Below are positions 14,195 through 49,525 of a stretch of 53,182 nt of DNA, in pieces. Position 1 is the stretch's first letter; each line of letters opens with the position of its first letter. Source of the stretch: Paludibacteraceae bacterium (lineage in GTDB: Bacteria > Bacteroidota > Bacteroidia > Bacteroidales > Paludibacteraceae); assembly GCA_017525455.1 (NCBI GenBank), contig JAFXSS010000081.1, positions 1-53,182 on the forward strand. The letters run 5' to 3'. The notes under the pieces were generated by a model. The model had not been told where the DNA came from. It was given only the letters and a program-made list of their open reading frames with translations, and did no database searches. A program made the position numbers and the translations under genes.

Positions 14195-15112
14195 ATGCAA
14201 AAGGTAGCAACAGTAATAGTAACATTCAATCGTAAGGAATTACTTGCGATTTGCTTGGATGCAGTTGAGAAGCAAGTGTATAAGCCTGCTGTTACGTACA
14301 TCATTGACAATGCGTCAACCGACGGGACGGATGTGTGGGTGCAGACAAATGGATACGACAGAAAGAAATCCAATATTGAATTTCGTTATGTCCGGCTACC
14401 TGAGAATATTGGAGGTTCTGGTGGCTTTCATACCGGGCTAAAGACAGCCTTTGAGGCACATGACAATTTTGATGCCTTTTGGCTGATGGACGATGACGGT
14501 ATACCTGATGCAATGCAACTTGAGAAACTTCTTGTGCATATTGACGAGCGAGATTATTTGTCTCCCTTGGTCGTAGCTAAGGAAAACCCGAGTAAACTTT
14601 CGTTCGGTGGCAGCCCGAATGTTGCCGATTTTGAGGCAAAAGCTGATAATCTCGGATTGGTTGATAATGTAGCATTCCCGTTCAACGGAGTGCTGTATTC
14701 TCGTAAGTTGGTAGAAATGGTAGGCTATCCGGTCAAAGAACTGTTTATATGGGGTGATGAGATAAATTATCAGTTGCGGTGTATTGAAAAAGGATTTGTT
14801 CCGACGGTTGTGACTGATGCAATACATATTCACCCCGCGGACAGGCAAACTCCGGAAATCATATTGCGTAATCTGAAAGTCACGATACCGACGCAAGACT
14901 GGAAGCTCTATTGCTATGTGCGCAACAAGATGTATAACCTGCGGACACTGGCTACGCTCAAGCATTTCGTGGGCGATACGTGTCGATTGTTATTCCGCTA
15001 TACCATATATTTTACATTCTATTCCTTCGAGTGGAGACGGCTAGGCATCGTGTATCGCGCAATGTGGGATGGCTTCCGCAAAGATTTAAGCAGATTGGAT
15101 AATTACAGATGA
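14195..15112 (+). CDS. GT2 family glycosyltransferase (galactofuranosyl/rhamnosyltransferase-like)
   Basis: The 305-residue protein has the compact GT-A layout of the GlfT/RfbF-like branch: VTFNRKELL, IDNASTDGT, the loop NIGGSGGFHTG (residues 71-81), the metal site WLMDDDG (DDD at 99-101) and FIWGDEINYQLR with the catalytic acid. That branch transfers galactofuranose or rhamnose in mycobacteria and Gram-negative bacteria, so a similar donor is plausible but not shown. Two hydrophobic stretches lie near the C-terminus. The last codon overlaps the transposase-like gene that follows (ATGA). Confidence 0.85.
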   Translation: MQKVATVIVTFNRKELLAICLDAVEKQVYKPAVTYIIDNASTDGTDVWVQTNGYDRKKSNIEFRYVRLPENIGGSGGFHTGLKTAFEAHDNFDAFWLMDDDGIPDAMQLEKLLVHIDERDYLSPLVVAKENPSKLSFGGSPNVADFEAKADNLGLVDNVAFPFNGVLYSRKLVEMVGYPVKELFIWGDEINYQLRCIEKGFVPTVVTDAIHIHPADRQTPEIILRNLKVTIPTQDWKLYCYVRNKMYNLRTLATLKHFVGDTCRLLFRYTIYFTFYSFEWRRLGIVYRAMWDGFRKDLSRLDNYR

Positions 15113-16260
15113 CGGATTGGCAGTCATATTGGGACAAGAAACGGGAAACAGGAGGGGCACGACCTATGCAGACCACCTCGCATCGGGCGCGTAAGTCATG
15201 GAACGACTATAGCGGCTGTGGTATTTATCATATTACCATTGTCACCCACAATCGACAGCGCGTGTTTGGCGAACTGAACCGTGACCTTGGTCATCCCCAG
15301 GTTATATTGACCAAACTTGGCCAATTCGTGGCGGAGCAGTGGCTGAAGATCCCTGACATCCAGTCCGAAAAAGGGCGAAAGGTAAGTGTGCTTGGTCATC
15401 AGGTCATGCCTGACCATTTTCACGGCGTTTTGCGAGTGGAAGAGCCTATGGATGTTAGCATGGGGTGTATCATACGCGACTTCAAGGCTGTCTGCACCAA
15501 AGAGTGCCGCCGTATGTATCAGCCAAGCTTAGCTGATCTATTAGAGCACCCTGACACGCAAGCCCGTCTTGAACACATGTCCCATCGCCAGCGTGAAGAC
15601 TATTACGCCTCGATTGGTGCAGAACCGCTGTTTGATGACAATTACGATGATACCATTTGTTACCGCAAAGGGCAACTGGAGAACATCATCCGATACGTAC
15701 AGGATAACCCGCGACGTGCTATCTTGCGGGCAATGCAGCCGGATTTCTTCAAGCGTATTCAGCACATAACAATCGATGGCGTTGATTTTGCTGCGTATGG
15801 CAACTTGTTCCTTCTTCGCCGTCCGTGGAAGGAGCAAGTGTTCTGCCATCGTTGGCGTATGGATGGTGAAAAGCGTGATTATAGCACCCCGTATGAGAAG
15901 ACCGATGAATATCAATATCAACGCTCTGCATGGTTGCAAGCGGCTGAGGATGGTGCTGTGTTGATTACACCGGGTATATCCAAAGGAGAACAACAACTGG
16001 TGAAAGACTGCATGGAGCAGGAGCTACCGCTGATTCATTTGCAATCCGAACCCATAGGCACAAATTGGCATCCCGAATACAAACGGTACGAATTGTGTGC
16101 TTCCGGTAAACTTCTAATCCTCTCACCTTGGCAGTTGGATGATCAAGGCGATGTGAATGGAGTGCCTGCAGATACGGCTTATAGCCGTTTCCACAATCTG
16201 AATGACCTCGCCCGACTGATTTGTGATGACGAATCCCCTGATATGCTCATCAAACGCTAA
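15109..16260 (+). CDS. REP-associated (IS200-like) tyrosine transposase with extra C-terminal Rossmann-like domain
   Basis: Residues 35-235 match the Y1/RAYT transposase family. IYHITIVTHNRQRVF is the first strand, MPDHFHGVL holds the HxH metal site (H103, H105), and RYVQDNPRRAIL holds the probable catalytic Tyr196. Beyond that is a further 150-residue part with LITPGISKGEQQLV and KLLILSPW, which looks like a DprA-type nucleotide-binding fold. RAYTs usually cut and join single-stranded DNA at short palindromes. Related palindromes lie inside this gene (15518-15537) and just after its stop (16265-16284). The gene overlaps the GT upstream by four bases, so it is embedded in the polysaccharide operon. 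No terminal repeats of a complete insertion sequence are visible. Confidence 0.82.
   Translation: MTDWQSYWDKKRETGGARPMQTTSHRARKSWNDYSGCGIYHITIVTHNRQRVFGELNRDLGHPQVILTKLGQFVAEQWLKIPDIQSEKGRKVSVLGHQVMPDHFHGVLRVEEPMDVSMGCIIRDFKAVCTKECRRMYQPSLADLLEHPDTQARLEHMSHRQREDYYASIGAEPLFDDNYDDTICYRKGQLENIIRYVQDNPRRAILRAMQPDFFKRIQHITIDGVDFAAYGNLFLLRRPWKEQVFCHRWRMDGEKRDYSTPYEKTDEYQYQRSAWLQAAEDGAVLITPGISKGEQQLVKDCMEQELPLIHLQSEPIGTNWHPEYKRYELCASGKLLILSPWQLDDQGDVNGVPADTAYSRFHNLNDLARLICDDESPDMLIKR
15518..15537. repeat. REP-like palindrome inside the transposase gene
   Basis: The 20-base ATCAGCCAAGCTTAGCTGAT is an inverted repeat with a single mismatched pair. It encodes the residues around QPSLAD of the RAYT-like protein. 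It differs at only two positions from the palindrome after the stop codon, and one of these differences changes the pairing in the stem. Confidence 0.6.
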
Positions 16261-16292: not shown

Positions 16293-17039
16293 ATGCTATC
16301 CTTATATACCCTCAACATCCTCCCTTCCAAGCAAGCCTTGTCCAACCTCCCCAAGGGCAAGCTGCTCATCAACACCATCAACGCCCATTCGTACAACGTG
16401 GCGCAGCAGGATGCGTTGTTTGCCGAGGCGCTGGCCAATGGCGATGTGCTGACTGCCGATGGGGCAAGTATCGTGCATGCGTGCCGTTGGCTACGCACAC
16501 CGTCGCAACCCAAGGAACGTATAGCTGGATGGGACGTCTTCATCCATGAGATGACAACTCTTGCGAAGCGTGCAGAGGCAGAGCACACACATCCGACGGT
16601 GTTTTTCATGGGCTCATCGCCTGCAGTGCTGCAACGCATAGTGGAGCGGGCTGCACTGGATTATCCACATCTGAAGATCGTTACGTACTCGCCGCCATAC
16701 AAACCCGAGTTTTCGCAGGAAGACAATATAGCGATCCTCAGCGCAATCAACGCGGCCAATCCTGATCTGCTATGGATAGGCATGACTGCTCCCAAGCAGG
16801 AGAAATGGACATATTATCATTGGCAAGATCTGAATATACATTGCCACGTAGGCACCATAGGCGCGGTGTTCGATTTTTATGCCGGCACAGCCAAACGTGC
16901 ACCGCTATGGTGGCAGCGTCACTCTCTTGAATGGCTGTACCGCCTGCTGACTGAACCAAGCCGTATGTGGCGCAGGTATATCATCGGCAATGCACTGTTC
17001 ATTCACAATATCCTCAAAGAGAAGCGTGCAAAGCGATAG
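16293..17039 (+). CDS. WecG/TagA/CpsF family glycosyltransferase (GT26)
   Basis: The 248-residue protein carries the family motifs NTINAHSYN (residues 27-35), LTADGAS (53-59), FFMGSSP and IGMTAPKQEKW, the last being the conserved PKQE segment. It ends with a WLYRLLTEPSRMWRRY helix typical of the membrane-docking C-terminus. Members add the second sugar to undecaprenyl-PP-linked acceptors (ManNAc or ManNAcA in the best-known cases). It is therefore likely an early step of repeat-unit synthesis. It starts nine bases after the palindrome and overlaps the next gene by 14 bases. Confidence 0.92.
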   Translation: MLSLYTLNILPSKQALSNLPKGKLLINTINAHSYNVAQQDALFAEALANGDVLTADGASIVHACRWLRTPSQPKERIAGWDVFIHEMTTLAKRAEAEHTHPTVFFMGSSPAVLQRIVERAALDYPHLKIVTYSPPYKPEFSQEDNIAILSAINAANPDLLWIGMTAPKQEKWTYYHWQDLNIHCHVGTIGAVFDFYAGTAKRAPLWWQRHSLEWLYRLLTEPSRMWRRYIIGNALFIHNILKEKRAKR

Positions 17040-18024
17040 AGCATATACATTTCTATTAGCCCTGCTGCGGCTGGCTTTGGGAGAGGATGTGCAAAACATG
17101 CCCATGGCTTTGTCGCCTGACGAGTGGCGCGAGGTGTATCGCATGGCGGCCAAGCATGCCGTAATTGCTATCGCGTGGGATGGGGTAGAACAGTTGCAAC
17201 AGCATACCCCGCAGATGCTCCAGTCCATGCCTGCTGATCTGATGGGCAAGTGGTTTGCTGATGTGCATGCTATCGAGACCGCTGATTTCCGCATGGCCAA
17301 GCATACCGCTCAAGTTCAGAAACTTATGAGCGATGGCGGATTTGATTCGCAAGTGCTTAAAGGCGCTACTTTGGCAGCCTATTACCCCAAACCGGAACAT
17401 CGCCAGGCGGCTGATATTGACTTGTGGGTACTACCGCAACAGGGCAAGTCGCTTGTAGCGCATCGTCAGGATCTGCTGAAGTACCTGCAGTCGCAACATG
17501 CAGCCGCGGTAGGTCAAGTCGTGTACCATCATATAGAAACGACAATTGGCGATGTGGAGGTAGAGATGCATGTTACACCCACATGGCTCTGCCATCCGTT
17601 GCATAACCGCCGCTTGCAGCAACTATTTGCGCAAAACCGCCAACTCACTCCCGAACAGCAGGAACTATACACTTTGCTTCATGCGTTCCGCCACATTTAT
17701 CACGATGGGTTGGCGCTAAGGCATGTGTTGGATTTTTATCTGGTCAGCGCATCCAATCGCCAACGCGGCATCTCTGCACCCTACAAGTTGAATGCGCAGC
17801 TTGGGTTACAGCCTTTTGCGCAAGCCATATGCCAAGTGGCTGATTACGTGATGGGCAAGACGCCTGCCGACCGACTCTCAGCACGCGCCATGCATATTTT
17901 GCAGGCTTTGCCGGAGCGCCGGGTTTCTTGCCGGGTGCAGTGGGATTACCCCGGTGAAACGCTCTGCAACCTGCCTTGGCGGGCGATTCATTATATTTGG
18001 CGAAAATCGCATCACTATGCTTAA
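17026..18024 (+). CDS. NTP_transf_5 family nucleotidyltransferase-like protein
   Basis: I choose the GTG at 17026 (332 residues). A longer form from 16990 would overlap the GT26 gene by 50 bases. LKGATLAAYYP near residue 110 and the DxD pair ADIDLW near 129 match the active-site core of the PF14907 nucleotidyltransferase-fold family. A helical C-terminal half holds HAFRHIYHDG. Members sit in polysaccharide loci and also in lasso-peptide and other RiPP clusters beside PqqD proteins and ABC exporters. Both settings apply here. The reaction is unknown. The gene overlaps the ABC transporter by eight bases, which ties the two together. Confidence 0.8.
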   Translation: MQSDRAYTFLLALLRLALGEDVQNMPMALSPDEWREVYRMAAKHAVIAIAWDGVEQLQQHTPQMLQSMPADLMGKWFADVHAIETADFRMAKHTAQVQKLMSDGGFDSQVLKGATLAAYYPKPEHRQAADIDLWVLPQQGKSLVAHRQDLLKYLQSQHAAAVGQVVYHHIETTIGDVEVEMHVTPTWLCHPLHNRRLQQLFAQNRQLTPEQQELYTLLHAFRHIYHDGLALRHVLDFYLVSASNRQRGISAPYKLNAQLGLQPFAQAICQVADYVMGKTPADRLSARAMHILQALPERRVSCRVQWDYPGETLCNLPWRAIHYIWRKSHHYA

Positions 18025-19630
18025 TCAACCCAACATACACTATCTTCGCCACGCTGCAAGTGCTTATCGCTTGCAGATGACGCTCAATATCCTGTTGGGC
18101 GTGATGGACGTATGCATCGGCTTGGCCGAAGTGTGGCTGAGCAAGCAACTGATAGATGCTGCCACCTCTGGTCACTCATGGTCGCTTGCCGATGGCGGAT
18201 GGCTCTCGCTGCCGGCATTGGCAGCAATGCTCATCGCTTGTATGCTCACATCTATCGCTCTCGCTTATGCCGTACGATGGCTGCGTGCCCAACTCAGCGT
18301 GCGTTCGCTCAATCGTCTGCAGGCCGGCGAGTATGCCCGACTCCTTCAGTCACCGTGGCTCTACCTGCGCAAGCAGCACTCAGGCACGCTGACAAACACC
18401 CTTGTCGAGGATATTGATACCGTCTCTGCCTTTCTATCTGAGCAGTTCCCGGCACTCATCACAGCTGTGCTGCAGTTTATCGGCGCGTTTGCTTTCCTGT
18501 GTGTACTCAATTGGCGATTGGCTATTGTAATTATCATAGTCACACCCGCTATCATTGCGGCTGCGCAATTGTATATCCGTCGCATGCGCCGTCACCGCCA
18601 TCAGGTGCGTGCCGACCAGGCATCTATCCTGGCGTTTGTTCAGGAATCGATTCAGCACTCGCTTGTGCTCAAAGCGCTCAACCGAACCACCTATGCTTCA
18701 GCCCTGCTGGATGAGCAACATGCCGGTTATCAGCAGAGTTACATGCGCCTGACACGTTACTCGGCTTTGGCGATGGTTCTGGTGCGAACAGCATTTGTGG
18801 CCGGTTACTTGATAGCTTTCTTCTGGAGCGCATACAGCCTGTCGGTGCACGCTATCACTTTTGGCGCGATGGTTGCGTTTGTGCAACTGGTGGGACGTAT
18901 ACAGCAACCCATGCGCACGCTCATCGGTTATGTAGGTACGTTTGTCAATGTCTCCACCGCTGCCGAACGCCTGAATAACCTCCATCAGCCGGCAGAGACA
19001 AGCAATCTTCAAATCCTCAAATCTTCCGATCTACAAATCAAAGTTAGCGACCTCTCGTTCACTTATCCCGATTCCGATGAGCCTGTGCTCTCGCATCTGG
19101 ATGCGGATATACCCGCAGGCTCGCTCACGGCTGTGGTTGGCAAGACGGGTATCGGCAAGACGACCTTTGTCCAACTGCTCCTGGGTTTGTTGCCCATCGA
19201 GGATGGCTCCATCTCTTTGCCCGAAGGCGGCATGGCTTATGTCCCGCAGGGTAATACGCTTCTCTCCGGCACTATCCGATATAACCTGCTGTTCGGTAAT
19301 CCTACGGCCTCCGACAGCGCGATGTGTGATGCTTTGCGACTAGCTGGGGCAGACTTTGTGTTGGATGACGAACGCGGACTCGATTATCCTTGTGGCGAAC
19401 GAGGCACGGGACTCAGCGAGGGGCAGGCTCAGCGCATAGCCATCGCTCGCGCCTTGCTCATCGATGCGCCGGTCTTGCTGCTTGACGAGGCTTTTTCTGC
19501 CCTTGATACACCTACGGCTGAGGCTATACTTGCTGCCATTCGCGCTGCCCGACCTAAGCAGACCATCATCTGCGTCACACACCGAGATGCCATCATCCCG
19601 CATGCCGACCAAGTGATACATTTGACGTAA
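18017..19630 (+). CDS. ABC exporter, fused membrane and ATPase domains
   Basis: From the ATG at 18017 the protein has 537 residues: a six-helix type IV exporter membrane domain (about 1-320) and an ATPase domain with Walker A GKTGIGKTTF, Q-loop VPQGNTLLSG, signature LSEGQAQR, Walker B VLLLDEAFSALD and an H-loop histidine (CVTHRD). No peptidase domain is present. A linker rich in Ser, Leu and Lys (SNLQILKSSDLQI) joins the parts. Its DNA repeats cttcaaatc/ctcaaatc and may be a low-complexity insertion. Possible cargoes are a lipid-linked glycan (PglK-like, since no Wzx is seen), lipid A core (kdsB follows), or a modified peptide (PqqD gene nearby). Confidence 0.9.
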   Translation: MLNQPNIHYLRHAASAYRLQMTLNILLGVMDVCIGLAEVWLSKQLIDAATSGHSWSLADGGWLSLPALAAMLIACMLTSIALAYAVRWLRAQLSVRSLNRLQAGEYARLLQSPWLYLRKQHSGTLTNTLVEDIDTVSAFLSEQFPALITAVLQFIGAFAFLCVLNWRLAIVIIIVTPAIIAAAQLYIRRMRRHRHQVRADQASILAFVQESIQHSLVLKALNRTTYASALLDEQHAGYQQSYMRLTRYSALAMVLVRTAFVAGYLIAFFWSAYSLSVHAITFGAMVAFVQLVGRIQQPMRTLIGYVGTFVNVSTAAERLNNLHQPAETSNLQILKSSDLQIKVSDLSFTYPDSDEPVLSHLDADIPAGSLTAVVGKTGIGKTTFVQLLLGLLPIEDGSISLPEGGMAYVPQGNTLLSGTIRYNLLFGNPTASDSAMCDALRLAGADFVLDDERGLDYPCGERGTGLSEGQAQRIAIARALLIDAPVLLLDEAFSALDTPTAEAILAAIRAARPKQTIICVTHRDAIIPHADQVIHLT

Positions 19631-19661: not shown

Positions 19662-20399
19662 ATGAAAATAATAGGTGTCATCCCTGCCCGCTATCAGTCC
19701 AGCCGTTTCCCCGGCAAGCCGCTTGCCAATATCCTGGGGCATCCGATGATCTGGTGGGTTTATCAGCAATGCATCAAGGTGCAGGAACTTGACGAAGTGT
19801 ATGTGGCTACTGACGACCAGCGCATATTCGACACCTGCCGGCAACTCGGTTTGCGCGTCATCATGACCTCCGACCAATGTCACACAGGTACGGATCGCGT
19901 GGGCGAGGTGGCCGCAAAGATTGATGGCGACCTGTTTGTCAACATCCAGGGCGACGAACCGCTTATCGAACCGCAGATGATTCGTGACATAATCGGCATC
20001 TTCCGCGACGAATCCGTCTATTTCGGCTCATTGCGCAAACAGATTACCGATGAGGCGGAGATTCTTGCGCCCAGCACAGTCAAGGTGGTTGTTGACAAGA
20101 ACGAGGATGCCTTGTATTTCTCACGCAGTGTCATCCCCTCAAATGTCAAGGACGGCAAACTGGCGCGCGTCTATCGCCATGTGGGAATCTATGCGTACAA
20201 ACGCGATTTCCTGCAGACTTTCATCCAGTTGCCGCCAACCGAACTGGAGGCAGGCGAAGGACTGGAACAACTCCGCGCATTGGAGAACGGATACAACCTT
20301 CGCGTGCATGAAACGCAGTTCGACACTATCGGTGTTGATCTGCCCGAGCACATAGCGATGGTCGAAGATCTTATCCGGGCACGCCAAACTGCTATTTGA
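19662..20399 (+). CDS. kdsB: 3-deoxy-manno-octulosonate cytidylyltransferase
   Basis: The 245-residue protein begins MKIIGVIPARYQSSRFPGKP, the CTP-binding loop of KdsB, and contains ATDDQRIFD, MTSDQCHTGTDRV and the metal site NIQGDEPLI. It activates Kdo to CMP-Kdo for the inner core of lipopolysaccharide. The length fits the family. An AT-rich 31-base spacer (runs of AATTTTTAATT) separates it from the ABC gene, so it may be co-transcribed. A hairpin and an 11-base repeat array follow the stop. Confidence 0.96.
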   Translation: MKIIGVIPARYQSSRFPGKPLANILGHPMIWWVYQQCIKVQELDEVYVATDDQRIFDTCRQLGLRVIMTSDQCHTGTDRVGEVAAKIDGDLFVNIQGDEPLIEPQMIRDIIGIFRDESVYFGSLRKQITDEAEILAPSTVKVVVDKNEDALYFSRSVIPSNVKDGKLARVYRHVGIYAYKRDFLQTFIQLPPTELEAGEGLEQLRALENGYNLRVHETQFDTIGVDLPEHIAMVEDLIRARQTAI

Positions 20400-20741: not shown

Positions 20742-22871
20742 ATGAAAGCAAAATGTTTGTTTTTGACGATCGCACTATTTCTCCTGTTACCGCTGTCTGT
20801 GAAGGCCGCTACGGCAACGGATGTATTTATTGTGCCGTCCGGTACTCCGGATGTTTATGCCACTATTAACCCGTCATCGTATGGTTCCACCACTAGTGGG
20901 GCAACATATTCCGGCGAAGTGGATTATGACTCCAACTACCCGCTTGTTTGGTTGGATAATTCCAAGGTATGGGCTACAATTGGTTCTCCGGGCAAGGCAA
21001 AGTCGGTAACTATTTATTGGGATCTTAGTGGAGATTATAACAATGCGACCTCAACCATTCGCATTTATGGTCAAAATACGCCGTATACAGGTTCTGAAAC
21101 ATTGGGAACAATGACAGGTTCTTTGTTGGGAAGCCAAACGTATAACGGTTCAGCATCGCACACAATTGATATTAGTGCCGGTGATTGCGATTTTATTGCT
21201 ATAGTCGGAAGCCCGGATGCGGGTATCGCTTTCAATCGTCTGGAAATCTCGTGGACAGTGCCTGATGTAACAACATATGCAATCTCTACGACGAAGACTG
21301 GTAAAGGTTCTATCAGCGTGTCCCCCGCTTCTCCTGTAGCAGAAGGCGTGAGCGTGACGGTTACATTCTCGGGAACAGGTTCGGGCAATGAAATCAATTC
21401 TTACGTTATTGATGGCGTTACGACTGTTTTGACTGAAGATGAATATAAGAAATCGACAAGTGCGACATTTGTAATGCCGGCTCACGATGTAGATATATCC
21501 GCTGTGTTCGCTGCCAAACCTTCTCGTGGTGAGAATGCAGTGTCTATTAACGGTACACCTAATGTTCTGGCTGCGAATATTGAGTCCGGTGTTGAGAGAA
21601 ATTTCACTATTTCGACTCAGCAAAACGGTAGTTCGTCGCCTGCATATACTGCCGGGCTGAAAAGCGTAACATCAACTTATGGAAAGGTTTCGATAGTTGG
21701 CAATACGTTCAATGCATCTACAGGTACAGGAACCTTGACCTTGCGTGGATTGGCTTCCGGTTATGACGAAGTCGTTATCACTACTTATCAGACTAACGGC
21801 TATCAGCGTTCTACGGCTACTATTCAGGTTACCGTTGTAGCTCGTGACGTAGCGCTTGTAACCGAGCTTAATGACAAGTATTATGCCGTCACGCATAGTA
21901 TAGGGGGGACTACCGCTACAGCTCAGGAGTTAATCAAAGATGGTGAGAATTACTATTACAAGTCGGGCGTAAGTGTTAGTGATATCACATGGCAATACGA
22001 AATCGCCAATGCTGCCGGAACTAAATACTACCTCAAGCATGCTGGGAACTACTTAACCGTTGACGCTGCAACCATTTCGATGGAAGCGGCTGCTTTCCAG
22101 TGGTCAAAGAACGCAAGCGATGTGTTTATTACTGGTTACTTGACAGGTCTTTGCTATGACGAGGAGTTCTCTGCCTTTACTGCGGATAACCAGAATGAAT
22201 ATAGGACGATTTCAACAATTTCCGCTCCTGTTCATGAGGTAAGCATTTCCAACATCCTACCTGCTACCGAATATACCCGTTCGCTCACTAATGGCAATTA
22301 TGCTACCATGTGCTTGCCGTTTGCAGTGAGCAGAAGTGAGACCTTCTTTAGTGGCGTGACGGTGTTTAATATCACCGGTAAGCGCGTGTCCGGTTCAACC
22401 ATTACAGGTATTGAAATGGAGGAAGTAGAAGGTACACTGGAGCCCGGTAAACCGTATATTATCCAGGCTTCTGCCAGTGCAATAAGTGCTTGGCATGGTG
22501 ATGACGAGGTAGCCATGCCGGTTTCGGCAACCGGTCTCGTCGGAAACCTTGGTAGTTCGTATGCCGTGCCTGTTGGATGCTATGTTATCTCTTCCAATAA
22601 GATTCGTAAGGTCGTTTACTCGGGCACCGCAAATGTAGGACAATACAGGGCATACCTTAATTTGGATGCTGTTCCTGAAGTTGATGGCGCATCTGCTCCC
22701 GGACGTAGAGTGTTGTATGTTGAAAGTACAGCAACCTCGGTTGAGGATCTGCTTGAAAACGCTACGCTCATCAATTGGAACGAGCCTGTGTATAATATCA
22801 TGGGTCAGCGAGTTGGTAAAGGTACAACAGGCGTGCTTATCCAGAACGGACAGAAATTCCTGGTACAATAA
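20742..22871 (+). CDS. Secreted surface protein with InlB-type repeat and conserved C-terminal tail
   Basis: The 709-residue protein has a clear signal peptide (Lys-rich start, LFLTIALFLLLPLSVKA, cleavage near residue 22). Residues 180-260 resemble an InlB B-type/Listeria-Bacteroides beta-grasp repeat (TTKTGKGSISVSP, then FVMPAHDVDISAVF). The middle is beta-rich, with YYYKSGVSVSDITWQYE. The last 27 residues (VYNIMGQRVGKGTTGVLI plus a short end) form a tail shared with the protein at 30373-31251. Such tails resemble cell-surface sorting domains, but I cannot assign them to type IX secretion. It should lie outside the inner membrane. No enzymatic motif is visible. It heads the unit that continues with the small peptide and the PqqD gene. 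Confidence 0.8.
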   Translation: MKAKCLFLTIALFLLLPLSVKAATATDVFIVPSGTPDVYATINPSSYGSTTSGATYSGEVDYDSNYPLVWLDNSKVWATIGSPGKAKSVTIYWDLSGDYNNATSTIRIYGQNTPYTGSETLGTMTGSLLGSQTYNGSASHTIDISAGDCDFIAIVGSPDAGIAFNRLEISWTVPDVTTYAISTTKTGKGSISVSPASPVAEGVSVTVTFSGTGSGNEINSYVIDGVTTVLTEDEYKKSTSATFVMPAHDVDISAVFAAKPSRGENAVSINGTPNVLAANIESGVERNFTISTQQNGSSSPAYTAGLKSVTSTYGKVSIVGNTFNASTGTGTLTLRGLASGYDEVVITTYQTNGYQRSTATIQVTVVARDVALVTELNDKYYAVTHSIGGTTATAQELIKDGENYYYKSGVSVSDITWQYEIANAAGTKYYLKHAGNYLTVDAATISMEAAAFQWSKNASDVFITGYLTGLCYDEEFSAFTADNQNEYRTISTISAPVHEVSISNILPATEYTRSLTNGNYATMCLPFAVSRSETFFSGVTVFNITGKRVSGSTITGIEMEEVEGTLEPGKPYIIQASASAISAWHGDDEVAMPVSATGLVGNLGSSYAVPVGCYVISSNKIRKVVYSGTANVGQYRAYLNLDAVPEVDGASAPGRRVLYVESTATSVEDLLENATLINWNEPVYNIMGQRVGKGTTGVLIQNGQKFLVQ

Positions 22872-22963: not shown

Positions 22964-23140
22964 ATGAAAAAGTTTATTGCACCTGAAGTCAGTGTAGTGC
23001 GTTACGACACAAGTATTTTGTGCGCAAGCATTGGCATGGGCGATGATATCGGTGAAGGCGAGTCAATCGACGCTGATGCTCCTGGTCGCCGCCGTGGTAT
23101 ATTCGACGATAGCGAAACTACTACGTCCACACGCCTGTAA
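22964..23140 (+). CDS. 58-residue peptide with PqqD-type leader-like N-terminus
   Basis: I place the start at 22964, giving MKKFIAPEVSVVRYDTS. The frame stays open upstream but has no better start. F4-x-x-P7-x-V9 recalls the YxxPxL motif that lasso-peptide leaders use to bind PqqD/RRE domains. A small-residue segment CASIGMGDD follows, then an acidic stretch, APGRRRG and a Thr-rich acidic tail. Peptides of this MKK-aromatic-xxP type are common in Bacteroidales without known function. It sits 92 bases after the secreted-protein gene and 18 bases before a PqqD-family gene. A RiPP precursor is a hypothesis only; a small structural or surface peptide is the alternative. Confidence 0.65.
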   Translation: MKKFIAPEVSVVRYDTSILCASIGMGDDIGEGESIDADAPGRRRGIFDDSETTTSTRL

Positions 23141-23158
23141 TCAGCGCAACTGCAACGC

Positions 23159-23488
23159 ATGCGACTGCTTTACTCGTTCCGCTTTCAGCAGATTGGCGAT
23201 ACATGGCTCGCGTCTGCTGTCGGACAAAATGCCCACCTCTTCAACGGAGTTCTCCAACTGAATGAGGTGGGGCATTTTATTGTCTCCGAACTCGCCAAAC
23301 AATCTGTCAGCTCTCAGAGTTCTGATGGTTCGGAATCATCCGGCTCTCCTGACTTATCCGAACAGCAGTTTATAGAATATCTGACCAACAGACTGACAAA
23401 AGAATATGCGGTGGATTGCTCCACCGCACAATCTGCTGTCCAACAGGTTTTGGACTATCTCAAAACTGAACGAGTAATATCGGATTGA
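23159..23488 (+). CDS. PqqD-family (RiPP recognition element) protein
   Basis: The 109-residue protein has the PqqD/RRE pattern in full: YSFRFQQIGDTWLASAVG (beta hairpin), a strand ending VLQLNEVGHFIVSEL, then helices FIEYLTNRLTKEYAVD and AQSAVQQVLDYLKTERVI. PqqD domains bind leader peptides and present them to modifying enzymes. A Ser-rich loop of about 20 residues (residues 50-68) interrupts the domain after the first helix and is unusual. It follows the 58-residue peptide closely and converges on argS. No modifying enzyme lies next to it. Confidence 0.82.
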   Translation: MRLLYSFRFQQIGDTWLASAVGQNAHLFNGVLQLNEVGHFIVSELAKQSVSSQSSDGSESSGSPDLSEQQFIEYLTNRLTKEYAVDCSTAQSAVQQVLDYLKTERVISD

Positions 23489-46491: not shown

Positions 46492-47034
46492 ATGGTCAAA
46501 TTGTTTTTGACAGATGTTGACGGTTGTATGACCGATGGCGGGATGTATTACGGCAACGACGGAGCAGAGCTCAAGCGCTTTTGCGTATATGACGGTATGG
46601 GTATGATGCTGCTTCGTCAGGCCGGTGTGCCATGCGGCATACTGACTAGCGAACGGGTGCAACTGGTAGTCAACCGGGCTCGCAAACTCAATCTCGATTA
46701 TCTGTATCTCGATACGGGCAGCAAAGCCGGTCAGGATTCAACTATCCGTTATTCGCCGGCCAGGGCTGAGGCTCAGCAACTTCCGTTCCGCACCAAGCGT
46801 GAGGCTGCTGAGGATATATGCAGTGAACTGGGCATAACGCTGTCTGAAGTGTGCTTTGTGGGGGATGATGTGAATGATATCGACCTACTGCAAGCAGTTG
46901 GTTATCCAATGTGTCCTCCAAACGCGGTTCCTGAGGTGCTTAACGTGCCGGGTATACGTGTGCTCAATACGGCCGGCGGACAGGGGGCTATACGCGAGGC
47001 TACAGGGCTAGCGTTGCAGACGTTGGATAAATAA
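46492..47034 (+). CDS. KdsC-like HAD phosphatase (Kdo-8-P or KDN-9-P type)
   Basis: The 180-residue protein has the C0-type HAD motifs: LTDVDGCMTDGG (nucleophile and general-acid Asp at 8 and 10), ILTSE as motif 2, a Lys region TKREAAED, and VGDDVNDIDLL as motif 4. DGMGMMLLRQAG is the family's loop. It likely removes phosphate from a nine- or eight-carbon acidic sugar and, with kdsB in the window, Kdo-8-phosphate is the first guess. About 18 residues (TGSKAGQDSTIRYSPARA) appear to be inserted before motif 3 compared with usual KdsC, so the substrate could differ. The next gene follows after 11 bases. Confidence 0.85.
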   Translation: MVKLFLTDVDGCMTDGGMYYGNDGAELKRFCVYDGMGMMLLRQAGVPCGILTSERVQLVVNRARKLNLDYLYLDTGSKAGQDSTIRYSPARAEAQQLPFRTKREAAEDICSELGITLSEVCFVGDDVNDIDLLQAVGYPMCPPNAVPEVLNVPGIRVLNTAGGQGAIREATGLALQTLDK

Positions 47035-48427: not shown

Positions 48428-49525
48428 ATGGCATCTTTTAAACGATTCATAGACGTACAAGTTCCAATCAATACGTGCACTTTGCGCTGTCCGTATTGTT
48501 ACGTTACACATCATAAGCTTTTCAGTCAGCAGTTGCCGAAATTCAAGTATAGCATCGACCAATGGAAAAGTGCTTTTGCGCCTGAACGTTGGGGGGGAAG
48601 ATGTATGGTGAACTTCTGCGCAGCGGGCGAGACTTTGTTGGCGCCGGAGATGGTTGATTATATCCGCGTTACATTGGAACAGGGACATTACGTGATGGTC
48701 GTTACTAATTGCACTGTTGATAGAGCTTTCGACCGAATATGCACCGAGTACTCTTCGGAGCTGATGGAGAGATTATTCTTTAAGTGCTCATATCACTACT
48801 TACAACTTAAGCAGCGCGGTCTGATTGAACGTTTCTTCAAGAACATTCAAAAGGTGCGTAACAGGGGCGCGTCGTTCACTTTGGAACTAACGCCTCATGA
48901 TGAGCTCATTCCATTTATAGACGAGTTAAAGCAGGTAGCCATAGAGCATGTAGGCGCTCTTCCGCATGTGACCGTTGCTCGCGACGAACACTATATGGAA
49001 AACCTGCCGATTCTGACCAATTTGTCTCGTGAGGAATACAAGCACTTGTGGGGGCAGTTCGATTCTTCTTTGTTTGAATTCAAATTATCAATCTTCAACG
49101 AGCCACGTAAGGAGTTCTGCTATGCCGGCAGTTGGACATTTGCCTTGGATATGGGCAGTGGCAAACTTAGACAATGTTATCGATGCTTGTATGCGCAAAA
49201 TATCCTTGACAATCCGGAAAAGCCAATACGTTTTCTGCCGATAGGCCACTATTGCCAAGAGCCACATTGCTTTAACGGTCATGCATGGCTCGGATTTGGT
49301 GCCATCCCGACTTTGGCTACCCCAACGTTTGCCGAGATGCGCAACCGGATTTGTACTGATGGAACAGAGTGGCTCACGCCTGTCTGCAAAGAAGCGATGG
49401 AGACCAAATTGAAAGAGACGAATGAAGTGTTGTCTACTAAAGAGGAACGTTGTGCCGACCTGCAAATGTGCTGGCGCGTGCCTGTTGACAGGGCAAAGCG
49501 ATTTGTGAAAAAAATTATCAAATGA
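48428..49525 (+). CDS. Radical SAM protein with SPASM-like auxiliary cluster region
   Basis: The 365-residue enzyme has the cluster motif CTLRCPYC (CxxxCxxC, near residue 17) and a GE-type motif at AAGETLLAP. In its C-terminal half is FCYAGSWTFALDMGSGKLRQC, which fits the first SPASM element C-x13-G-x4-C; CYRC and CQEPHC follow. SPASM proteins carry one or two extra 4Fe-4S clusters and often modify peptides, though some act on sugars. Here it lies between a deacetylase-like gene and a pyruvyl transferase (four-base overlap), so a glycan or nucleotide-sugar substrate is more likely than a peptide. Function unknown. Confidence 0.85.
   Translation: MASFKRFIDVQVPINTCTLRCPYCYVTHHKLFSQQLPKFKYSIDQWKSAFAPERWGGRCMVNFCAAGETLLAPEMVDYIRVTLEQGHYVMVVTNCTVDRAFDRICTEYSSELMERLFFKCSYHYLQLKQRGLIERFFKNIQKVRNRGASFTLELTPHDELIPFIDELKQVAIEHVGALPHVTVARDEHYMENLPILTNLSREEYKHLWGQFDSSLFEFKLSIFNEPRKEFCYAGSWTFALDMGSGKLRQCYRCLYAQNILDNPEKPIRFLPIGHYCQEPHCFNGHAWLGFGAIPTLATPTFAEMRNRICTDGTEWLTPVCKEAMETKLKETNEVLSTKEERCADLQMCWRVPVDRAKRFVKKIIK

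Follow-up and report, generated by a model that had tools for sequence, protein, structure and literature searches.

HprK-related proteins occur together with PqqD-like proteins in the HPr-rel-A and SynChlorMet systems. A W/Y/LxxP/L/I recognition sequence has been reported for many RRE groups (PMC12710340, accessible text), a His-Lys-Asp-Asp motif has been reported essential in lasso kinases (PMC9266682, accessible text), and ruminal lasso clusters with kinase, PqqD and nucleotidyltransferase genes have been reported as well (PMC7533575, accessible text). The words kinase and Bacteroid are absent from the available portion of PMC7470986. Among the matches listed from the open-licence literature, which leaves subscription papers and preprints outside, no title or abstract beginning describes a PqqD-kinase-nucleotidyltransferase set without lasso enzymes.

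The window, by which we mean the whole stretch of 53,182 nucleotides that was analysed, carries the following elements around a small peptide gene and a PqqD gene:

16293..17039, + strand: WecG/TagA/CpsF glycosyltransferase, a linked neighbour (domain match)
16990..18024, + strand: NTP_transf_5 nucleotidyltransferase-fold protein with KG...DxD kept (PF14907, 104.7 bits)
18017..19630, + strand: ABC exporter without a peptidase domain (PF00664, ABC_membrane; PF00005, ABC_tran)
19662..20399, + strand: gene that we take to be KdsB-like, a linked neighbour (near the cassette in several relatives, not all)
20742..22871, + strand: secreted all-beta surface-type protein of 709 aa with a near-invariant C-terminal tail, first gene of the trio (orthologue in 10/10 species)
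22964..23140, + strand: candidate precursor peptide of 58 aa (ORF; orthologue before PqqD in 10/10 species with this PqqD type)
22973..22990, + strand: F-I-A-P-E-V motif (peptide residues 4-9), candidate RRE-binding site (identical in 10/10 orthologues)
23075..23104, + strand: D-A-P-G-R-R-R-G-I-F, conserved core segment (DAP(G)RRR(G/S)IF in 10/10 orthologues)
23159..23488, + strand: discrete PqqD/RRE protein of 109 aa, residues 52-64 being a low-confidence loop (PF05402 above cut-off; AlphaFold; Foldseek)

The peptide starts with MKKFIAPEV, that is, with an F-x-x-P-x-V pattern, and 18 nt of the plus strand separate its ORF (22964-23140) from that of PqqD (23159-23488). The leader motif is short. 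In the ten orthologous peptides MKKFIAPEV, VRYD, ILC.S, DAP, RRR and IF are invariant, and simple pN/pS counts over nine of the ten species gave 0.27 (peptide) and 0.36 (PqqD), values that point to purifying selection on both. Kept in ten species at such a pN/pS, the peptide is more than a chance ORF. Searches of Pfam and NCBIfam at an E value of 1 returned no match for it, and when it was used as query against its own genome the sole match was itself.

As a protein, the window PqqD scores 28.4 bits with PF05402, above the Pfam cut-off of 23.4; a whole-genome search with the same profile at an E value of 0.001 did not list it and returned only a stronger second PqqD on contig C13. An AlphaFold model built from ten relatives reached a mean pLDDT of 80.1 (four other models reached 49-54) and places strands at residues 6-12, 15-21 and 31-34 and helices at 36-50, 68-83 and 87-103, with residues 52-64 unordered. 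This succession of three strands and three helices is the RRE winged-helix layout, as predicted by the model. The eight best Foldseek matches in the PDB are chains of TbiB1 and TfuB1, each with leader, and of PqqD; in ninth place comes a sactipeptide enzyme, a protein with an RRE of its own. The best E value was 1.6e-3 at a probability of 1.00, and none fell below 0.001. Lasso B1-type NCBIfam models gave 17.4 and 16.7 bits, short of their cut-offs of 70 and 80, and the PQQ equivalog TIGR03859 gave no match at an E value of 1 or below. The ORFs, the PF05402 score and the predicted RRE fold thus bear out the preliminary description of a 58-aa FxxPxV peptide placed before a clear PqqD.

With the window PqqD as query, eight of 300 family genomes matched, namely its own, six congeneric ones and G095, which belongs to a different genus. 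The order of secreted protein, MKKFIAPEV peptide and PqqD is found in the window and in all six genus relatives. Further cassettes came from a pattern search (G614, G619) and from a scan of named genomes (L246, RUG12873), whose 12 loci were L246, eight repeats of known loci, G095 and two distant ones (L247, L249). Record labels read Bacteroidales or Paludibacteraceae for the near relatives and Prevotellaceae and Clostridia for the two distant loci, and goat rumen and yak omasum are named in two record titles. In every one of the ten species found with this PqqD type the peptide lies 12-59 nt before PqqD, so the conservation upstream of PqqD that had been anticipated for it holds across genomes. 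A MKKFIAP start occurs, among the 300 family genomes, in exactly the seven that carry this PqqD type and in no other; the one in G607 belongs to an unrelated 129-aa protein. In G095 just 2 nt separate the end of a divergent small F-x-x-P peptide (NKKRFVVPSLYFVEL...) from a PqqD, behind which come the kinase, an S26-like peptidase and NTP_transf_5. That the peptide and PqqD form a functional unit is well supported, and we consider it likely that the peptide is a client which the adjacent PqqD would bind for modification.

Peptides with similar starts are more widely spread. The broad pattern MKK[FY]xxP was misleading and was rejected: 114 of 121 genomes were among the matches listed, and most matches that were read turned out to be the beginning of a 506-aa protein. 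A tighter pattern gave 40 matches in 33 of the 300 genomes against 27 for a reversed control, and 23 against 5 within the genus. The ORF was read at 38 of these 40 matches, the second matches in G237 and G272 lying outside, and ORFs of 33-70 aa were kept. Long ORFs were dropped (G087, G268, G145, G023, G136, G081 C28, G106, G031, G103 C10, G095 C8 and G166, the last of 129 aa), as were those under 33 aa (G190, G034, G216, G081 C118, and G103 C74, whose ORF is cut by the contig end) and, by judgement, a membrane-like one of 47 aa in G263 and one of 36 aa in G095 C4, both from genomes with a PqqD. All 18 genomes with a verified peptide carry a PqqD somewhere, compared with 155 of 300 overall. 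PqqD is absent from eight genomes with only dropped matches (G268, G023, G031, G034, G103, G106, G166, G190), so the outcome depends on the length rule; if the rule is dropped, 25 of the 33 pattern-matching genomes have a PqqD. Leader-like peptides, by a crude rule of our own, lie within 900 nt of a PqqD on the same strand in 14 of 73 loci and on the opposite strand in 5 of 73, an excess that alone is modest evidence because the 14 include three that resemble lasso precursors (L084, L142, L145) and four that had been added deliberately (window, L246, L012, L018). After residue 20, AP.?[RK] occurs in 10 of 24 wider-class peptides, a set that includes close relatives, whereas 2000 shuffles averaged 0.28.

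The window's own genome contains two further MKKYxxP peptides, of 34 and 42 aa, situated 30 and 13 nt behind larger genes. These two are located on G000:C136 (L157, L208) and G000:C146 (L158, L209), with no PqqD nearby. Seven loci (L079, L082, L114, L122, L123, L125, L152), which belong to another genus of the family and to a different family, have YxxPx(I/L)-like peptides with an IS(L/M)-like stretch beside a PqqD, with a kinase within 5 kb in six of them; these peptides are possibly a second precursor type.

The gene before the peptide has to be considered in reading these data. By our crude rule, the 709-aa protein (20742-22871) has a signal-peptide-like start; its model is beta-rich with a pTM of 0.47, and its structure matches are unspecific beta-repeats only. 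Across the ten species, identity to the window copy is 31-90% over the whole protein, and the last 33 residues (INWNEPVYN...GQKF) are near-invariant. As this tail is kept while the rest diverges, it suggests a sorting or anchoring function. The peptide could be a small companion of this secreted protein, acting as its operon partner, regulator or surface ligand, with PqqD serving some other substrate. Several observations are in line with such a role. The secreted-protein gene precedes the peptide in all ten cassettes, and in G095 a 307-aa protein with a signal-type start ends ~160 nt before the divergent peptide. Moreover, 15 of 18 MKKYxxP rows that are not of the window type (genus and one relative) lie within 150 nt behind a gene of at least 410 aa with no PqqD nearby, and the peptide may therefore belong to the surface protein instead. 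Of 19 upstream proteins, 9 carry the motif [AST]P.{0,3}R within their final 130 residues, where the remainder of these proteins would predict 0.15, and several peptide cores contain a similar motif; the table of upstream genes left out loci beginning at the peptide (L167, L184, L235) and membrane-like or unrelated genes. Yet no more than 9 of these 15 upstream genes passed the signal-peptide rule, several of the genes being cut by the locus end, against a background of 38 of 120 ORFs, and both the exclusive pairing of this peptide type with this PqqD type and the PqqD present in every verified-peptide genome speak against a companion role, which we regard as rather unlikely. Peptide homologues lying mostly in loci without PqqD would, by the preliminary description, have counted against it, and the answer is divided: the MKKFIAPEV type was never seen without one, and the wider MKKYxxP peptides mostly occupy PqqD-free loci. 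The wider class is equally compatible with a single enzyme set that acts in trans on several precursors and with a link to surface proteins.

NTP_transf_5 and the ABC exporter lie 3.3-6 kb upstream of the pair on the same strand, where the preliminary description gave 4-6 kb, and are found upstream on the same strand in eight of the ten cassettes, one being untestable; G232 has the trio and no NTP_transf_5 or ABC gene within ~9 kb upstream. K124, G125 and D142-x-D144 of NTP_transf_5 are kept in at least 90% of 12 sequences, their putative roles being those of the family. A second NTP_transf_5 match in the own genome lies at G000:C109:2410-3078 (-). The exporter ORF was listed from 17954, and the internal ATG at 18017 fits the starts of its relatives better. 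A C39 domain is absent among its 11 domain matches. Its ten best matches outside the cassettes all lie within 3.2 kb of a PqqD, after which the score drops from 264 to 136, in a set of loci most of which had been chosen around PqqD.

The linkage of these two genes to the pair might merely be the inherited order of an LPS or polysaccharide locus, as WecG- and KdsB-like genes and glycosyltransferases surround them. WecG adjoins NTP_transf_5 in the window, in L013-L017 and in L190. The L246 locus, in contrast, has no WecG or KdsB match and keeps NTP_transf_5, ABC and the trio in order, and relatives of NTP_transf_5 and ABC adjoin PqqD in other families, so that the expected co-occurrence with PqqD extends to other Bacteroidales; inherited order is in our view an improbable explanation. 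The WecG/TagA/CpsF gene is possibly a passenger and the KdsB-like gene probably one. In L013 and L014 a gene that is presumably KdsC-like stands between ABC and KdsB, where the window has none, and a copy of ~45% identity is located at 46492-47034 (+) of the window. Upstream of WecG, 15109-16260 (+) encodes a 383-aa protein with a weak match to REP-associated tyrosine transposases (35.8 bits, cut-off 80) and a long extension; it adjoins WecG in several relatives and is 97% identical over 227 aa in G189, above its neighbours there.

The second PqqD of the own genome, on contig C13, adjoins an HprK-like kinase and an S26-like protein. This PqqD is present in all seven cassette genomes among the 300 and the kinase in six of them. 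In G232 the kinase and the second PqqD are 28 kb apart; no kinase was found in G248, whose contig stops next to the S26-like gene. Most second-type PqqD modules read in the genus are without such a peptide beside them. Elsewhere among the Bacteroidales, for instance in L077 and L108, kinase, S26-like protein, PqqD, NTP_transf_5 and ABC form one run. H149, K170, D189 and D190 of the kinase are invariant in 16 of 16 sequences (the numbering is not aligned to ThcoK), and Ser30, His68, Arg69 and Asp83 of the S26-like protein are kept in at least 90% of 23 sequences, with roles presumed from the family. Library matches are weak for both, and therefore the names HprK-like kinase and S26-like rest on below-cut-off matches and motifs. 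A PqqD ORF was recognised by reference sequences in 67 of 79 loci examined; within 5 kb, these PqqD loci had the kinase in 38 cases, the S26-like protein in 30, NTP_transf_5 in 13 and ABC in 10, whereas fifteen control loci had 0, 0, 0 and 1, respectively. As many of the order-level PqqDs come from other pathways, some of them lasso-like, these fractions are no rate for one system.

The split partners that had been suspected look right, the missing parts being the kinase and the S26-like protein of C13. A lasso-type pathway, which the pairing of NTP_transf_5 with an ABC exporter had brought to mind, is disfavoured. The pair could be a remnant of a lasso cluster, or an incomplete one, that keeps B1 and tailoring genes: the closest RRE relatives of the window PqqD are lasso B1 proteins, and the kinase and nucleotidyltransferase are of types reported for lasso tailoring (PMC9266682 and PMC7533575, accessible text). 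However, the lasso B2 protease (PF13471, Transglut_core3) was found in none of 12 draft genomes of 71-96% completeness (nine cassette genomes, G095, G376 and G508), and the purifying selection indicated for peptide and PqqD also speaks against this reading, which we hold to be very unlikely. The radical SAM gene at 48428, put forward earlier as the nearest candidate modifier, shares the contig of the pair in the own genome, and PqqD proteins often serve radical SAM enzymes, but it is rejected as the missing part, its chances being very small: it scores 26.7 bits against a Pfam cut-off of 29.5, adjoins a polysaccharide pyruvyl transferase gene, and was found in only four of ten genomes searched (nine cassette genomes and G095), with the copies of G276, G614 and G215 on contigs other than that of the cassette.

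At the genome level, 155 of the 300 family genomes have a PqqD, 140 have NTP_transf_5 and 146 the kinase; all three are together in 118 and none of the three is found in 130. PqqD and kinase are both present in 142 genomes and both missing from 141, with 17 discordant (13 + 4), and within the genus (120 genomes) the corresponding numbers are 86 and 27, with 4 + 3 discordant. For PqqD and NTP_transf_5 the counts are 126 both, 131 neither and 29 + 14 discordant. Incomplete drafts contribute false absences to these counts, and as the genomes are related, P values overstate the evidence, the Fisher values being a guide only.

Based on these data we lean, by a little more than an even balance, towards the peptide being a precursor and PqqD its leader binder in a RiPP-like pathway whose genes are divided between two loci and include no recognised cyclase. 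Counter to this pathway, the kinase and the S26-like gene are both located outside the window locus. In the proposed sequence of events PqqD would bind the MKKFIAPEV leader, the HprK-like kinase encoded on C13 would phosphorylate a core Ser or Thr, and NTP_transf_5 might then put a nucleotide or a sugar on the phosphate, in the manner reported of PsmN for pseudomycoidin. The leader would be removed near the conserved LC(A/G/T)S by the S26-like peptidase, also of C13, and the ABC exporter would move the product out. By a chemistry that we infer, the product is probably a linear peptide that carries phosphate and further decoration and is connected with surface proteins; since the gene before the peptide encodes a secreted beta-rich protein, this protein and the product probably act together at the cell surface.

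More tentatively, and with the balance tilted against it, the system may represent an undescribed, widespread Bacteroidales RiPP class of linear peptides with aromatic-x-x-P leaders, a free PqqD, HprK-like phosphorylation, an NTP_transf_5 cap, S26-like trimming and export, and no ring, in which one genome-wide enzyme set serves several precursors, the gene of each following that of the surface protein which the peptide decorates or regulates. If so, 118 of the 300 sampled family genomes would share one peptide-modification system, one that would escape searches based on cyclases or on a single compact cluster, given that its parts are scattered and that its precursors frequently lie elsewhere. 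The PqqD-kinase-NTP_transf_5 set outside lasso clusters would then have candidate substrates, and modified peptides would be linked to bacterial surface proteins, a link that could be tested with few genes in E. coli.

How does this set compare with described systems? The joint presence of HprK-related and PqqD-like proteins resembles the NCBIfam systems HprK_rel_A (HPr-rel-A) and SynChlorMet (ScmC). By profile score, the kinase-PqqD pairs fall far below the cut-offs of these named systems: three kinases gave 21.3 (own genome), 12.2 and 32.1 bits with HprK_rel_A (cut-off 200) and 27.3, 25.2 and 13.5 bits with ScmC (cut-off 125). The Bacteroidales RiPP clusters mined with BAGEL4 (PMC10352776, accessible text) belong to the same order and share putative precursors and ABC exporters; unlike the present set they have rSAM, YcaO or LanC-like enzymes and mostly peptidase-containing exporters. 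The available text of that paper contains no set like this one, the word nucleotidyltransferase 0 times and PqqD once. Like the present pair, RRE-dependent RiPP pathways (PqqD, lasso B1 and sactipeptide RREs) combine the RRE fold with a small neighbouring peptide that bears an aromatic-x-x-P motif, whereas no cyclase, YcaO or lanthipeptide-type enzyme was recognised among the conserved neighbours here and the window's single radical SAM gene does not stay with the cassette. In comparison with lasso tailoring systems (PadeK/ThcoK-type kinases, PsmN, split B1), the peptide is without the C-terminal Ser used by lasso kinases, no B2 protease was found and an S26-like peptidase is present instead, the parts are on two contigs, and a secreted-protein gene lies inside the cassette. 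Common to both are a discrete PqqD-fold binder, an ABC exporter, an HprK-like kinase in which a His, a Lys and two Asp residues are kept, and a nucleotidyltransferase-type protein.
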